A DNA stretch of 64,000 nt from an uncultured Sphingomonas sp. (GTDB taxonomy: Bacteria > Pseudomonadota > Alphaproteobacteria > Sphingomonadales > Sphingomonadaceae): the NCBI GenBank assembly GCA_913776045.1, contig CAJYOI010000005.1, forward strand, positions 53,127-117,126, in the 5' to 3' direction. Under the pieces are notes generated by a model. That model made no database searches. It was not told the origin of the DNA and was given only the letters and a program-made list of their open reading frames with translations. Below are positions 11,175-28,025 of the stretch, piece by piece. Position numbers and translations under genes: made by a program. Every line of letters starts with the position of its first letter. Position 1 is the stretch's first letter.

Positions 11175-11632
11175 CAGAGCATTCCCAGTTCGAGCTTGGC
11201 CTCGTCGCTCATCTTCGACGGGTCCCAGGGCGGATCCCAGACGAGGTTGACGTCGACCGTCCCGACGCCGGGCACCGCGCCGACGCGCAGTTCGACTTCG
11301 GCGGGCATCGATTCGGCCACCGGGCAATGCGGCGTGGTGAGCGTCATCGTCACCACCGCGTGACCGTCGTCGGTCACCTCGACATTGTAGATCAGCCCCA
11401 GCTCATAGATGTTCACCGGGATTTCTGGGTCGAAGATGTCCTTCAGCGCGGCGATGATCCCGTCATAGGTTTCGCCACCGGGCTCGCCGGCCTTCAGACC
11501 CTGCGGCTTTTCAGCCAGAAAGCCGGACAGGTAATCGCGCTTCCGCTCCCCGCTCTCGACCGCATCCTCGACCCGCGCACGCGGCGGCGGGGCCACGGCG
11601 TCCACTTCCTCGACAGCGAAACGCTCGCTCAT
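11174..11632 (-). CDS. sufT: SufT-like iron-sulfur assembly factor (DUF59/MIP18 family)
   Basis: Auxiliary factor for Fe-S cluster maturation. The MIP18/DUF59 domain covers residues about 55-150, with DIFDPEIPVNIYELGLIYNV and the TPHCPVAESMP motif that holds the family's conserved cysteine. A further 55 residues at the N-terminus (acidic, with RKRDYLSGFLAEKPQ) precede the domain. Both ends overlap neighbouring genes by four bases (ATGA), so it is translated together with sufS and sufA. Confidence 0.92.
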   Translation of the reverse strand: MSERFAVEEVDAVAPPPRARVEDAVESGERKRDYLSGFLAEKPQGLKAGEPGGETYDGIIAALKDIFDPEIPVNIYELGLIYNVEVTDDGHAVVTMTLTTPHCPVAESMPAEVELRVGAVPGVGTVDVNLVWDPPWDPSKMSDEAKLELGML

Positions 11633-12966
11633 CCGAATATCCTCGTCACTCGTTCGATCCCCTTCACCAGCGCCTCGACGTCGGCGGGGGAATTATAGAC
11701 ACCGAAGCTCGCCCGCGCGGTCGCGGGTACGCCCAGCAGGTCCATCAGGGGCTGCGCGCAATGATGCCCGGCGCGGATCGCCACCCGGCTTTCGTCCAAG
11801 ATGGTCCCGATGTCGTGCGGATGCACCCCATGAATCGCGAAACTCACGATTCCGGCCGAATCCTCCGGCCCGAACAGCGAGACCGAATTGAGCCCGGCCA
11901 ATGCCTCGCGCGTGGCCCGGACCAGCGCGGTTTCGTGCGCGTGGATGCGGTCGAGGCCGATGTCGCTGACATAATCGATCGCGGCGTGAAGCCCGAGCAC
12001 GCCGACGATATGCGGCGTCCCCGCCTCGAACCGCGTCGGTGCGGGGGCATAGGTGGTGCGCTCGAAGCTCACCTTGTCGATCATCGACCCGCCGCCTTGG
12101 TACGGCGGCATCGCATCGAGCAGTTCGGCCCGGCCCCACAGCACGCCGATGCCGGTCGGGCCGTAGAGCTTGTGCCCCGAGAACACGTAGAAGTCGCAGT
12201 CGAGCGCGCGCACGTCGACGCCGAGGCGCGCGACCGCCTGACAGCCATCGACCAGCAATTTCGCACCGACACCATGCGCCAGATCAGCGGCGCGGCGGAC
12301 ATCGAGGACCGAACCGAGCACGTTCGACACATGCGCCAGCGCGACCAGCTTGTGTGCCGGCGTCAGCATGCGCTCACAAGCGTCCAGATCGATGCGGTGA
12401 TCGGCGGTCAGCGGGACGACGTCGATCGCCAAGCCCCTGGCTTCGGCGACCATCTGCCACGGCACGATGTTGGAGTGATGCTCGAGCGCGGAAAGCAGGA
12501 TGCGATCGCCGGCTTTCAGCTGCGTGCCGGCCCAGCATTGCGCGACGAGGTTGATCCCCTCGGTCGCGCCGCGGACGAAGACGATCTCGTTTTCGCCCGC
12601 GCCGATGAAGCTGGCGACGCGGCGGCGCGCGGCCTCATAGGCGAGCGTCATGTCGGCCGACCGCTGATACACGCCGCGGTGGACGGTCGCGTAATCCTGC
12701 GCATAGCCGCGCGTGATCGCATCGATCACCGGGCGCGGCTTCTGCGCGGTCGCGGCGGTGTCGAGATAGGCCCAGCCTTCGGGGATGGCGGGGAAGTCGG
12801 CGACCGCATCCAATTCCTCCCCGGCACGGGGAGGGGGACTGCGATGCGCAGCGTCGGGGTGGAGGGGGTTCTCCGCGAGGGATGCACTGTGAGGCGGCCC
12901 CCCTCCACCACCGGCTTCGCCGGCGGTCCTCCCCGTGCCGGGGAGGATTTGGGTGGCATCACTCAC
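11629..12966 (-). CDS. sufS: Cysteine desulfurase SufS with repeat-encoded N-terminal insert
   Basis: PLP enzyme that releases sulfur from cysteine for SufBCD. Family motifs are clear: YLDTAATAQKP, ATEGINLVAQ, ALEHHSNIVPW, the PLP lysine in FSGHKLYGPTG (Lys266) and the catalytic cysteine in RAGHHCAQPLM (Cys403). The GTG at 12966 overlaps the sufD stop (GTGA), so translation is coupled. At 445 residues it is about 35-40 longer than usual SufS. Residues about 7-51 (Gly/Pro-rich) are encoded by a 133-bp palindromic repeat inserted at 12815-12947. The extra segment precedes the first core motif, so activity is expected to be kept. No in-frame ATG lies between the repeat and the core. Confidence 0.93.
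   Translation of the reverse strand: MSDATQILPGTGRTAGEAGGGGGPPHSASLAENPLHPDAAHRSPPPRAGEELDAVADFPAIPEGWAYLDTAATAQKPRPVIDAITRGYAQDYATVHRGVYQRSADMTLAYEAARRRVASFIGAGENEIVFVRGATEGINLVAQCWAGTQLKAGDRILLSALEHHSNIVPWQMVAEARGLAIDVVPLTADHRIDLDACERMLTPAHKLVALAHVSNVLGSVLDVRRAADLAHGVGAKLLVDGCQAVARLGVDVRALDCDFYVFSGHKLYGPTGIGVLWGRAELLDAMPPYQGGGSMIDKVSFERTTYAPAPTRFEAGTPHIVGVLGLHAAIDYVSDIGLDRIHAHETALVRATREALAGLNSVSLFGPEDSAGIVSFAIHGVHPHDIGTILDESRVAIRAGHHCAQPLMDLLGVPATARASFGVYNSPADVEALVKGIERVTRIFG
12815..12947. repeat. 133-bp MITE-like palindromic element, copy 1 (inside sufS)
   Basis: It is bounded by a perfect 20-bp terminal inverted repeat: TCCTCCCCGGCACGGGGAGG at 12815-12834 and its reverse complement at 12928-12947. 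Each end is itself a hairpin. An inner inverted pair, GTGGAGGGGG (12859) and CCCCCTCCAC (12899), and a small hairpin CCGGCTTCGCCGG complete a nested structure. Copy 2 at 27888 has the same length, identical ends and the inner GTGGAGGGGG at the same offset of 44 bases. No open reading frame for a transposase is present, so movement would need enzymes in trans. Confidence 0.9.
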
Positions 12967-14036
12967 AGCGCGGTCTCCAGCCACCGGTCGGCATCCGCAA
13001 CAAATGCTTCCCGCACCGTCTCGTCGCCGATCCGCTCCAGCGCGTCGGCCACGAACGCGCGCGTCAGCAGCGCCTTGGCGCGCGCGGGCGGGATGCCGCG
13101 GCTTTCGAGGTAGAACAGCGCGCGTGCGTCGAGTTCGCCCACGGTCGCGCCGTGCGCACACTTCACGTCGTCGGCGAAGATCTCCAGCTCGGGCTTCAGG
13201 TTCACCGTCGCGGTCCGTTGCAGCAGCAGCCCGCGCAGCGACTGCTCACCATCGGTCTTCTGCGCATCACGCGCGACCTCGACCGCGGCGGCGAGGCTGG
13301 CGGTGGAGGTGTCCGCCGCGACCGCGCGCCACGTCTGGTGGCTGCTGCCATGCGGCTGGGCGTGGCGCACGCGGACAGCGCACTCCTGACGCTGCGCGCC
13401 GCGGGTCAGTAACGTGCCGCCCATCTCGGCATACGCCTCTACGCCATCGAGCGCGATCGCCGCGTCGAAGCGCGTCCCCATGCCGCCGGCGCCGAGGAAG
13501 GTCGCGACATAGCTCGCGCCCTGTCCGACCGACACTTCGTCGCGCGTCGACACGAAGCCTGCGTCGGCGACGACCCGCACCGCGCGTTGCAACCGGGCGG
13601 AGCGGGCGAGCTCAACCTGGACCAGCCGGTTCGCCCAGCCGGTGCCGACATAGCTTTCGACGATCGTCGCAACCGCGTCCTCACACAACCGGATGCGCGC
13701 GGGCAGATGGTTTTCGCCACCGGTCGAGACATGGACGATCTCGACCGCCGTCTCGGCCTCCGCGGCGTCCAGCGTCAGCGACCAGCCGGTCCCGCTCGCC
13801 TGTGCGCCGAGCGGGTGCGCGGTCGTCATGTCGAGTGCTTCGACGACCAGCCGTCCGGGGTTGCTCTGCTCGGGTGCGAAGACGCCGTCGACGAACACCA
13901 GCCGCGGGCCGTCGAGGCCAAGCGAGGCAGAAGCCGGCGCGACCGAGCGCTCGCTGGCCGCCGCAGCGCGCAGCGCCTCAAGATCAGCCCAGCGCCAAGA
14001 TTCTTCCCGCGTCGAGGGAAGCGTTACCGTCGCCAT
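12963..14036 (-). CDS. sufD: Fe-S scaffold protein SufD
   Basis: Component of the SufBC2D scaffold on which Fe-S clusters are built. The 357-residue protein carries the beta-helix core typical of SufB/SufD, with the SufD C-terminal signature DDVKCAHGATVGELD and LFYLESRGIPPARAKALL. The ATG at 14036 was chosen; a GTG two codons upstream (14042) overlaps the previous stop and is an alternative. The C-terminal end overlaps sufS by four bases. Confidence 0.94.
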   Translation of the reverse strand: MATVTLPSTREESWRWADLEALRAAAASERSVAPASASLGLDGPRLVFVDGVFAPEQSNPGRLVVEALDMTTAHPLGAQASGTGWSLTLDAAEAETAVEIVHVSTGGENHLPARIRLCEDAVATIVESYVGTGWANRLVQVELARSARLQRAVRVVADAGFVSTRDEVSVGQGASYVATFLGAGGMGTRFDAAIALDGVEAYAEMGGTLLTRGAQRQECAVRVRHAQPHGSSHQTWRAVAADTSTASLAAAVEVARDAQKTDGEQSLRGLLLQRTATVNLKPELEIFADDVKCAHGATVGELDARALFYLESRGIPPARAKALLTRAFVADALERIGDETVREAFVADADRWLETAL

Positions 14037-15328: not shown

Positions 15329-16788
15329 CCCACACTCCCCTCAAGCGAAATCCCAAGCAGCTTCTGCGCCTCGACCGCAAACTCCATCGGCAACTGCTGC
15401 AACACCTCACGCGCGAAGCCGTTGACGATGAGCGCGACCGCCGCTTCCTGGTCGAGCCCGCGCGACATGGCGTAGAACAGCTGGTCCTCGCTGATCTTCG
15501 ACGTGGCCGCCTCATGCTCGATCTGCGCCGACGGATTGCGGACCTCGATGTACGGCACGGTGTGCGCGCCGCATTGGTCCCCGAGCAGCAGCGAATCGCA
15601 TTGGGTGAAGTTGCGCACGCCCTCCGCATTCGGCGCGACGCGGACCAACCCGCGATAGGTGTTGTCGCTGCGGCCGGCCGAAATCCCCTTGGACACGATC
15701 GTCGATCGGCTACCCTTGCCGTTGTGGATCATCTTCGTGCCGGTGTCGGCCTGCTGGCGGTTGTTGGTCACCGCCACCGAGTAGAATTCGCCGACCGAAT
15801 CCTCGCCGTTCAGCACGCATGACGGGTATTTCCACGTAACCGCCGAGCCGGTCTCGACCTGGGTCCAGCTGACCTTGCTGCGCTTGCCCTGACACAGCGC
15901 GCGCTTGGTCACGAAATTATAGATGCCGCCCTTGCCGTTCTCGTCGCCGGGATACCAGTTCTGGACCGTGCTGTACTTGATCTCGGCATCGTCGAGCGCG
16001 ACCAGTTCGACGACCGCAGCATGCAACTGGTTCTCGTCGCGCATCGGGGCGGTGCAGCCCTCAAGATACGAGACGTACGCGCCCTTATCGGCGACGATCA
16101 AAGTGCGTTCGAACTGGCCGGTGTTCTCGGCATTGATGCGGAAGTAGGTGCTAAGCTCCATCGGGCAGCGGACGCCCTCCGGAATGTAGACGAACGTCCC
16201 GTCGCTGAACACCGCGCAGTTGAGTGTCGCGAAGTAGTTGTCGTGCATCGGCACGACCTTGCCGAGCCACTTCTTCACCAGCTCGGGATATTCGCGGATC
16301 GCCTCACTGATCGACCGGAAGATGACGCCGGCGGCTTCCAGCTCGGCGCGAAACGTCGTCGCGACGCTGACCGAATCGAACACCGCATCGACCGCGACCT
16401 TGCGCGCGCCCTCGACCCCGGCGAGCACCTTCTGCTCCTCGATCGGGATGCCGAGCTTTTCGTAGACGCGCTTGATCTCGGGATCGAGCTCGTCGAGCGA
16501 CGAAATCGTCGGCTTCGCCTTCGGCTCGGCGTAATAATAGGCGTCCTGGTAATCGATCGGGTCGATATTCAGCTTCGCCCAGTCAGGCTGCTCCATCGTC
16601 TGCCACAGCCGAAACGCCTTCAGCCGCCAGTCGAGCATCCACTGCGGCTCGTTCTTCTTGGCGCTGATGTAGCGGACGGTGTCCTCGGACAGGCCCTTGG
16701 GCGCGAATTCCTGCTCGATGTCCGAGCTGAAGCCCCATTCGTACTTCTTGTTCGCGGCCTCGTAAGCCTCGGCATTCTTCGTAGCCAT
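15325..16788 (-). CDS. sufB: Fe-S scaffold protein SufB
   Basis: Main scaffold subunit of SufBCD. The 487-residue protein has the full SufB architecture: N-terminal helical part ([20 protein letters not shown]), the beta-helix core with [20 protein letters not shown] and [20 protein letters not shown], and the C-terminal core motif [20 protein letters not shown] containing the conserved cysteine that receives sulfur. It follows the regulator gene by four bases, with only AGG 12 bases upstream as a weak ribosome-binding site, supplied by the edge of a palindromic repeat. Confidence 0.96.
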
Positions 16789-16792
16789 GATC

Positions 16793-17302
16793 TTAAACCT
16801 GTTCCCCGGCGAAGGCCGGGGTCCAGCCTCCGACCGGTTGCGACTGGACCCCGGCCTTGGGTCCCATCAAAGTAGTACTTTGATGGGTACCCTGCGCCGG
16901 GGAACTGAGTTGGGTAAGCGTGATGCCGGCAAGCGCCGATCGCACCGCGCCGTTGACCGTACCCATATGCGGCCGGACGTGGCACGTGCCGCCTACCGCA
17001 CAATCATGGCTCGCCGGATCGACGCAGGTGGTGAGCCCGATCGGCCCCTCGATCGCCTCGACGATATCGGCCAGCGTGATCGTCGCCGGCGGCCGTGCGA
17101 GGCGGAAGCCCCCGCCGGTCCCGCGCGCGCTGTCGATCAGCCCGGCGGCGCTGAGGCGGCTGACGAGCTTCTGCACGGTCGGCAGCGGCAGGCCGGTCTC
17201 CTCGGCGATGACGGTCGCGTTCAGCCGGCCCGACACGCCGCAGTGCCGCGCGGCGGCTGCGAGCAGCACCACGGCATAATCGGCTTGGGCGGTCAGGCGC
17301 AT
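16793..17302 (-). CDS. Rrf2-family SUF operon regulator with repeat-encoded C-terminal tail
   Basis: Transcription factor of the IscR/SufR type, with an N-terminal winged helix ([40 protein letters not shown]) and three cysteines at 93, 101 and 107 that should bind a [2Fe-2S] cluster, reporting cluster status to the suf promoter. Family members are about 135-150 residues; this one has 169. The last 37 residues (about 132-169) are encoded by the palindromic repeat at 16801-16905 and look unlike the rest. It is the first gene of the SUF operon, four bases before sufB, so it likely regulates its own operon. Confidence 0.92.
16801..16905. repeat. Nested palindromic repeat at the 3' end of the Rrf2 regulator gene
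   Basis: Three nested inverted repeats: outer GTTCCCCGGCG (16801) with CGCCGGGGAAC (16895); middle AAGGCCGGGGTCCAG (16812-16826) with CTGGACCCCGGCCTT (16844-16858); and a separate hairpin CCCATCAAAGTA (16863) with TACTTTGATGGG (16876) around a single G. The third, AT-rich hairpin sits between the middle and outer right arms as if inserted into an older repeat. The element is unrelated in sequence to the 133-bp elements. Confidence 0.85.
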
Positions 17303-27158: not shown

Positions 27159-27886
27159 CGGCGAACGACCTGCGCCTGGGCGTCAACATCGACCATGTCG
27201 CGACCGTGCGCAACGCCCGCGGCAGCGGCTATCCCGATCCGGTGCGGGCGGCGTTTCTGGCGGCGGAAGCGGGCGCCGACGGCATCACCGCGCACCTGCG
27301 CGAGGATCGCCGGCACATCACCGACGACGACATCGCGCGGCTGTCTGACGGCCTGCCGATCCCCTTGAACCTGGAAATGGCGGCGACGCAAGAGATGCTG
27401 GCCATCGCGCTGCGTCACCAGCCGCACGCCGCCTGCATTGTCCCCGAACGCCGCGAGGAGCGGACGACCGAGGGCGGGCTCGACGCCGCCGGCCAGCACA
27501 ATCATCTGGCGCCGATGGTCAGCGCGCTGAGCGACGCCCGCATCCGCGTGTCGCTGTTCATCGAACCCGATCCGCGCCAGATCGAAGCGGCGATCCGGCT
27601 GCAGGCGCCGGTCGTCGAACTCCATACCGGCCGCTATGCCGAACTGTCCGGTGACGCACAGACCGCCGAACTGCGCCGCATCGCCGATGCCGCGGCGCTG
27701 GCGGCGAAGAACGGAATCGAGGTCCATGCCGGGCACGGGCTGACGTTCGACAATGTCGTACCCATCGCCGCGATCCCGCAGGTGCGCGAGTTGAATATCG
27801 GGCATTTCCTGATCGGCGAGGCGATTTTCGACGGACTGGGCCCGGTGGTGCGGCGGATGCGTGATCTGATGGATTCGGCGCGGTGA
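27155..27886 (+). CDS. pdxJ: Pyridoxine 5'-phosphate synthase
   Basis: Condenses 1-deoxyxylulose 5-phosphate and 3-amino-1-hydroxyacetone phosphate to pyridoxine 5'-phosphate, the last ring-forming step of vitamin B6 synthesis. The 243-residue TIM barrel shows [60 protein letters not shown] and [11 protein letters not shown]. It overlaps pyrE (ATGA). Its stop is two bases before a 133-bp repeat. Confidence 0.97.
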
Positions 27887-27887
27887 A

Positions 27888-28020
27888 TCCTCCCCGGCAC
27901 GGGGAGGGGGACCGCCGACCGCAGGTAGGTGGTGGAGGGGGATCGCCGGGGGCGGCTCGTTCGTGGCCCGCCCCCTCCACCATCGCTGCGCGATGGTACC
28001 CCTCCCCGTGCCGGGGAGGA
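27888..28020. repeat. 133-bp MITE-like palindromic element, copy 2 (between pdxJ and acpS)
   Basis: It starts with TCCTCCCCGGCACGGGGAGG (27888-27907) and ends with the exact reverse complement (28001-28020). Inner GTGGAGGGGG (27932, offset 44 as in copy 1) pairs with CCCCCTCCAC (27971), and CATCGC/GCGATG forms a small hairpin. Length and ends are identical to copy 1 at 12815 while inner loops differ. It begins two bases after the pdxJ stop and ends six bases before the acpS start; its terminal GGAGGA supplies the acpS ribosome-binding site. Confidence 0.9.
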
Positions 28021-28025
28021 TTTTG

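Follow-up and report, generated by a model that had tools for sequence, protein, structure and literature searches.

The sufS gene of this Sphingomonas genome carries, directly after its sixth codon, an in-frame palindromic element that belongs to a multi-copy repeat family, and in-frame palindromes of this and other families recur across species and, outside sufS, across other conserved genes. Very probably, the palindrome is translated from a GTG coupled to the sufD stop codon and tolerated ahead of the enzyme core, by a process that recurs across genes and repeat families. The case of sufS is thus one of many, spanning other genes, species and repeat families, and is wider than the original prediction, which concerned sufS alone.

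In the window, our term for the whole 64,000-nucleotide stretch analysed, sufS (11629–12966, minus strand) encodes a 445-residue cysteine desulfurase with a GTG start, recognised by Pfam (Aminotran_5, PF00266, residues 67–433, E = 2.7e-137) and by phmmer against solved cysteine desulfurases. The GTG (12964–12966, minus strand), with a GGAG 8 nt upstream, shares the minus-strand sequence GTGA with the sufD stop codon TGA (12965–12963); sufD occupies 12963–14036 on the minus strand, its start codon being our choice. Codons 1–6 (VSDATQ; 12949–12966, minus strand) precede the 135-nt element (12814–12948, minus strand), which has the ends ATCCTCCCC...GGGGAGGAA and is recognised by its multiple copies, its fold and its occurrence in relatives. 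It sits between the GTG/sufD-stop overlap and the conserved LDxxADFPAIP core, and its codons 7–51, reading ILPGTGRTAGEAGGGGG...SPPPRAGEE, would give SufS 45 extra Gly-, Pro- and Ala-rich residues ahead of the first conserved segment. From codon 52 onward the protein reads LDAVADFPAIPEGWAYLDTAATAQKP, with which SufS of Sphingomonas usually starts; this codon, TTG (Leu52; 12811–12813, minus strand), is the sole candidate for a later in-frame start ahead of the core, judging from the sequence and from relatives. As predicted from the DNA alone, a repeat therefore encodes residues of about 7–51, placed between the sufD-coupled GTG and the first core motif. The same prediction gave a length of 133 nt, not a multiple of three, which called for adjusted junctions; the unit is in fact 135 nt and in frame here.

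The SufS core (11629–12813, minus strand) starts LDAVADFPAIP and is conserved with insert-free relatives in an alignment of 39 SufS sequences, from which two of 24 insert-free rows were left out because of a frame problem. K266 and C403 are invariant in this alignment; a conserved lysine and cysteine are the criterion for a class V aminotransferase of the SufS type. Residue 56 aligns to residue 10 of the solved chain 1i29, which we take to be the CsdB/SufS chain of E. coli, and the insert therefore precedes the conserved part of the enzyme, leaving the core untouched as had been proposed. The RNA of positions 12800–12980 has a predicted folding energy of -112.6 kcal/mol (z = -6.1), which none of 200 shuffles equals. 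An AlphaFold model of SufS built with the 39 sequences has a mean pLDDT of 66.9, with block means of 25–42 over residues 1–60; most of residues 61–104 also lie below 50, so the model is no proof of a disorder limited to the insert. The one Rfam match of positions 12700–13100, to mir-8927, scored 24.4 bits where the cut-off is 160 (E = 0.0075) and was taken as chance.

When compared with its own genome, the 135-nt element returns 73 BLAST rows, corresponding to 40 distinct places once the strands, and neighbours within 200 bp, are merged. We call this family, to which the sufS element belongs, family 1; other families were separated from it by eye only. The window contains a further copy (27888–28023, listed without a strand), 80% identical to the sufS element over 61 nt; it lies about 2 bases past the stop codon of an ORF whose end is at 27886. 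In 22 other unique copies with clear ends, whose loci were fetched, the unit is 126–138 nt long and runs from ATCCTCCCC to GGGGAGGAT, with, by eye, an outer hairpin pair and an inner GGTGGAGGGGG/CCCCCTCCACC pair. The ends are inverted repeats in all 22, but the ends had also served as the search key. Copy lengths leave a remainder of 0, 1 and 2 on division by three in 9, 3 and 10 copies, respectively, so a copy can often land in frame without special adjustment. Furthermore, the family is poor in stops: 113 of the 132 reading frames of the 22 copies are open, against a mean of 90 in shuffles (0 of 200 shuffles reach 113), and in the 16 copies without a gene assignment 82 of 96 are open against 67, statistics that are descriptive as the copies are related by descent. 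No obvious target-site duplication was noticed by eye in the flanks. RAYT (Y1_Tnp, PF01797) was considered as the mobiliser and rejected, with no match in this genome and matches in only 6 of 81 genomes of the genus, our own counted; the RAYT search yielded no mobilising enzyme, and no transposase was linked to the element. The copies at L065 and L041 end with GGGGAGGAT right before the ATG of genes that we presume, from Pfam and familiar motifs, to be rpoN and hisF, where the repeat may supply a Shine–Dalgarno sequence.

A search of the genus detected SufS in 288 of 295 genomes. We fetched 160 suf operons, comprising the matches listed with the best E-values and an evenly drawn sample, and therefore enriched for insert carriers; with the window this made 161, and 160 were parsed after L314 (genome G162), whose junction is N-masked, was left out. 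From the sufD stop to ADFPAIP, 77 of the 160 junctions measure 29–92 nt and 83 measure 131–367 nt. Among the long junctions, 19 (the window counted) have the overlap start in frame and an open frame to the core, over gap lengths that vary from 131 to 179 nt with the frame maintained; the other 64 form a spacer class that is out of frame with the overlap start except in L310, which also has a better-placed downstream ATG. In the evenly drawn part, 45 of 60 other genomes were parsed, giving 22 short, 21 spacer and 2 in-frame junctions. All 19 in-frame inserts and 37 of the 64 spacers fold strongly (z < -3 against mononucleotide shuffles). Relatives might all have carried a similar non-repeat sequence, an outcome for which the 77 short junctions offer no support. 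Nor is the insert specific to one strain, as had been suggested for checking in related sphingomonads: genomes G000, G062 and G162 have it in common, and it is in frame in the sister species G062 and in other relatives. The wider set (L068–L126) holds 59 loci, mostly sphingomonads by record title, with 41 usable, 16 unusable and 2 without one of the genes; here, 8 of the 41 have long in-frame inserts, 6 of which fold with z < -3. These 8 come from Sphingosinicella, Parasphingorhabdus, Pelagerythrobacter, Altererythrobacter, Novosphingobium, Sphingomonas natans and two metagenome-assembled genomes without a genus.

Carriers of the in-frame insert tend to be rich in the repeat. Ten carriers, G162 with its masked junction among them, show 11–70 rows of element matches per genome, against 0–11 in ten genomes without an in-frame insert (eight with short junctions, G197 with a spacer, and G027 from outside the parsed 160); the difference has a Mann–Whitney p of about 3e-4, for picks that are non-random and with both strands counted. 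The sufD–sufS junction is not a unique hot spot, as sufT–sufA is also at least 80 nt long in 48 of 160 operons (L178–L337), 38 of the 48 folding strongly, and the length of sufB–sufC varies widely too. Several observations stand beside these counts. Near the sufB start in the window (about 16787–16880), a 22-residue translation resembles another palindromic repeat. In L165 (G134), L170 (G167) and L230 (G131), the SufS core is preceded by an in-frame ATG that falls within another palindromic repeat, half of which may be translated. Palindromic elements of G162 (L150, L372, L424, L439) are broken by N runs, perhaps assembly gaps at strong hairpins, and at G026:C1:2419548-2420734 the sufS match falls into two overlapping pieces, one with two internal TGA codons, which points to a frameshift or an assembly error.

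The in-frame inserts are not all of one kind. Family 1 accounts for 13 of the 19 (G000, L313, L178, L179, L181, L184, L316, L317, L182, L180, L183, L315 and L193), and the element comes after exactly six codons in 12 of these 13 rows and in the distant Sphingosinicella locus L085. That shared position favours a history in which the family-1 sufS insert arose by a single old insertion and was then inherited or recombined and lost many times; this is quite possible, falling somewhat short of probable, and as it concerns history only it is compatible with our main reading. It has to be set against the other repeats at the site, assigned by eye, which need several insertions: one reading LPLPLAGEGRGEG...LPPSPAGGRG and variants in L186, L187 and L190, and further ones in L223, L288 and L336. 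Additionally, the three junction states require at least 52 changes on a FastTree phylogeny of SufB, SufC, SufD and the SufS core, a tree of 170 rows in which 49 of 167 inner branches are weak. A general rule of six codons before any repeat does not hold, as it applies to family 1 only, L184 has two codons, and the hairpins of the other families start later by eye.

Family 1 also lies in frame in other genes of its own genome. Ten ORFs were taken to Pfam, L043 being too short to judge, and the recognised hosts are the GlyS beta subunit, LigD, a tRNA-synt_1c protein that we read as GluQRS, a Mur ligase that we take from its motifs to be MurD, an IMS polymerase that is presumably ImuB-like, and MurB. 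The LigD copy is located between the phosphoesterase and ligase domains, and the MurB copy at the N-terminus. With SufS, at least 7 of the 23 copies with loci (from the 40 places) are genic and in frame, and others lie just upstream of rpoN and hisF. The frame of entry into the element differs between hosts, giving SS in GlyS and ImuB and ILPG in SufS, MurD and MurB.

The same sites were compared among 20 chosen relatives and our own genome, with the repeat peptides assigned by eye. The GluQRS site holds family 1 in 6 of 21 genomes and only 15–24 nt in the other 15; the MurD site holds family 1 in 5 of 21 and different repeat peptides in at least two. At the GlyS site, 8 of 21 genomes (one masked) have family 1, 5 have other repeat peptides and 4 a 15-nt loop, and the remaining sequences are non-repeat or undecided. 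MurB carries family 1 in 4 of 21 (one partly masked), and LigD occurs with and without an insert among the 20 relatives, in a very variable linker whose homology was judged by eye. The distances across the sites are divisible by three in 21 of 21 genomes for GluQRS, 20 of 21 for MurD, 19 of 20 for GlyS and 19 of 21 for LigD, and the exceptions are N-masked (G162, twice) or have doubtful anchors (MurD of G184, LigD of G033). The MurD matches of G237 and G033 contain one and three stops, respectively, yet both are stop-free between the anchors, and in G033 the frame is open across the insert up to the GITGTNGKS motif. The ligD match of G033 (L425/L434) consists of two pieces in different open frames near a repeat-rich linker, a split that may be real.

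A bolder reading would be that sphingomonad housekeeping proteins contain fixed docking sites, at the N-termini of SufS and MurB and in MurD, GlyS and GluQRS loops, and that unrelated palindrome families cycle through these by targeted insertion, a shared mechanism guiding the choice of site rather than random insertion and selection alone. We think it unlikely that such sites exist or that these five are examples of them; if they were, the proteins concerned would carry a rapidly changing, repeat-encoded segment.

For SufS, the overlapping GTG or ATG is the only start common to all 19 in-frame loci, and the frame is open from there to the core. The overlap start is therefore probably the one used and the peptide of residues 7–51 made, as far as sequence can indicate, and the possibility that translation begins after the repeat finds no support in these loci. 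An SD-like core is present at the overlap in 15 of 19 in-frame loci and 52 of 64 spacer loci; found in both classes, it was set aside as proof of use, and it lacks diagnostic value because it is located in sufD. The contrary reading, which has little probability in our view, is that the element is an untranslated sufD–sufS spacer, that SufS starts downstream at TTG52, and that the hairpin serves mRNA stability or attenuation. The 64 long, out-of-frame junctions (of 160), 37 of them strongly folding, speak for it, as does an ATG or GTG shortly before the core in nearly all of them. The accessible text of PMC3733652 adds that many N-terminal REPs may be extragenic, through misannotation. In the window strain TTG52 could in principle start translation. 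However, GGAGG is only 2 nt from it, and the codon is CTG in the sister G062 and CTA in G162. Six of the 19 in-frame loci (L288, L223, L313, L186, L190 and L187) lack any further in-frame ATG, GTG or TTG, which answers in part the caution raised in that portion of PMC3733652. The two classes of long junction are also nearly exclusive: among the 83 rows, which are related to each other, 62 lack an open overlap frame but have an ATG or GTG 8–22 codons before the core, 19 show the reverse combination, L310 combines both features and L230 has neither; none of the 19 in-frame loci has an ATG or GTG at that distance. Finally, family 1 lies mid-gene in GlyS, MurD and GluQRS, and a restart there is implausible.

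Selection on the insert appears loose. Its dN/dS is 0.24–1.48 in 13 pairs of carriers, below 1 in 12 of them, against 0.03–0.11 for the core, in pairs that overlap and with small counts. The frame appears to be kept and the sequence only loosely so, which suggests weak constraint at the protein level and is easier to reconcile with a tolerated linker than with a functional domain. In 12 of 13 pairs the insert shows fewer synonymous differences per site than the core; together with a dN/dS that reaches 1.48 in one pair, this means that, instead of the peptide being retained, the DNA or RNA hairpin may be the selected target, or the inserts may be recent or exchanged. True domestication, in which the insert would have a selected role such as coupling, partner binding or tuning of SufS, can draw on the dN/dS below 1 in 12 of 13 overlapping pairs and on the insert common to G000, G062 and G162, but is very improbable given an insert dN/dS well above that of the core and a place that in other species is empty or holds an unrelated repeat, so that no particular sequence is required across the genus. 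The word domesticated in the original prediction was accordingly too strong, as tolerated read-through fits as well.

Under our preferred reading, a repeat of roughly 126–138 nt, GC-rich and built of hairpins, would have landed just after the sixth codon of sufS, presumably by transposition, and its translation would start at the GTG that is coupled to the sufD stop. The repeat could persist through the maintained sufD–sufS coupling, the scarcity of stops in any frame and the tolerance of the region before the core, with a peptide that is probably tolerated rather than useful. More generally, inserted copies would survive only where they are in frame and free of stops and the place tolerates them, and the same course of events would apply to further genes and repeat families.

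The best-known palindromes that code for protein are those of Rickettsia, a genus of obligate intracellular bacteria. Here, a genus rich in cultured species shows them in several conserved housekeeping genes, and no insert, an in-frame insert, a spacer and a different family occur side by side among its species. With these states coexisting, it becomes possible to test how mobile repeats turn into protein sequence, whether they choose their sites or are simply tolerated there, and at what cost to the enzyme.

Of the known systems, the Rickettsia palindromic elements (RPEs) are the closest in description. In the accessible text of three papers, they are palindromes of about 105–146 bp found between genes and in frame within genes for unrelated conserved proteins, and different groups can lie near the same place in orthologues (PMC2229807, PMC10969869, PMC3767692). 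Family 1, with copies of 126–138 nt both between and within genes, is likewise in frame in unrelated conserved proteins and missing from some orthologues (GlyS, MurD, GluQRS, MurB, LigD), and the comparison with Rickettsia drawn at the outset proved apt. The likeness is one of description, and family 1 differs in its Sphingomonas host, its GC-richness, the several GC-rich hairpins per unit and its N-terminal use at a stop/start overlap. By analogy, the sufS element probably works as RPEs do, as a stop-poor palindrome tolerated where the frame remains open. Other repeats resemble it less. The GTAG/CGTC REPs, in the accessible part of a 2013 paper, are units of 20–40 bp with a GTAG or CGTC tag, found inside ORFs such as tRNA synthetases of E. 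litoralis and S. alaskensis and, for CGTC-1, in S. wittichii (PMC3733652). Family 1 shares with these the palindromic repeats within ORFs, but it is about 126–138 nt long with ATCCTCCCC/GGGGAGGAT ends, and has no tag and no RAYT in its own genome. The Caulobacter CIR, also an alphaproteobacterial repeat, is about 110 bp and is described, in the accessible text, as absent from genes and with stops in all six frames (PMC2229807), whereas family 1 is stop-poor and intragenic. The ERIC, NEMIS and RU MITEs are, in the same portion of that source, small inverted-repeat elements, some fused in frame (PMC2229807); family 1 shares the terminal inverted repeats and in-frame fusion, but no target duplication was noticed (by eye only) and no transposase is linked to it. 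A literature search, with subscription journals mostly outside its reach, found, among the titles listed, none that deals with family 1 or with palindromic repeats of SufS in sphingomonads. In-frame palindromes are thus already known in principle, from Rickettsia and from other sphingomonad REPs; what look new are family 1 itself, its position at a stop/start overlap, and the way different families re-use the same sites within one genus.
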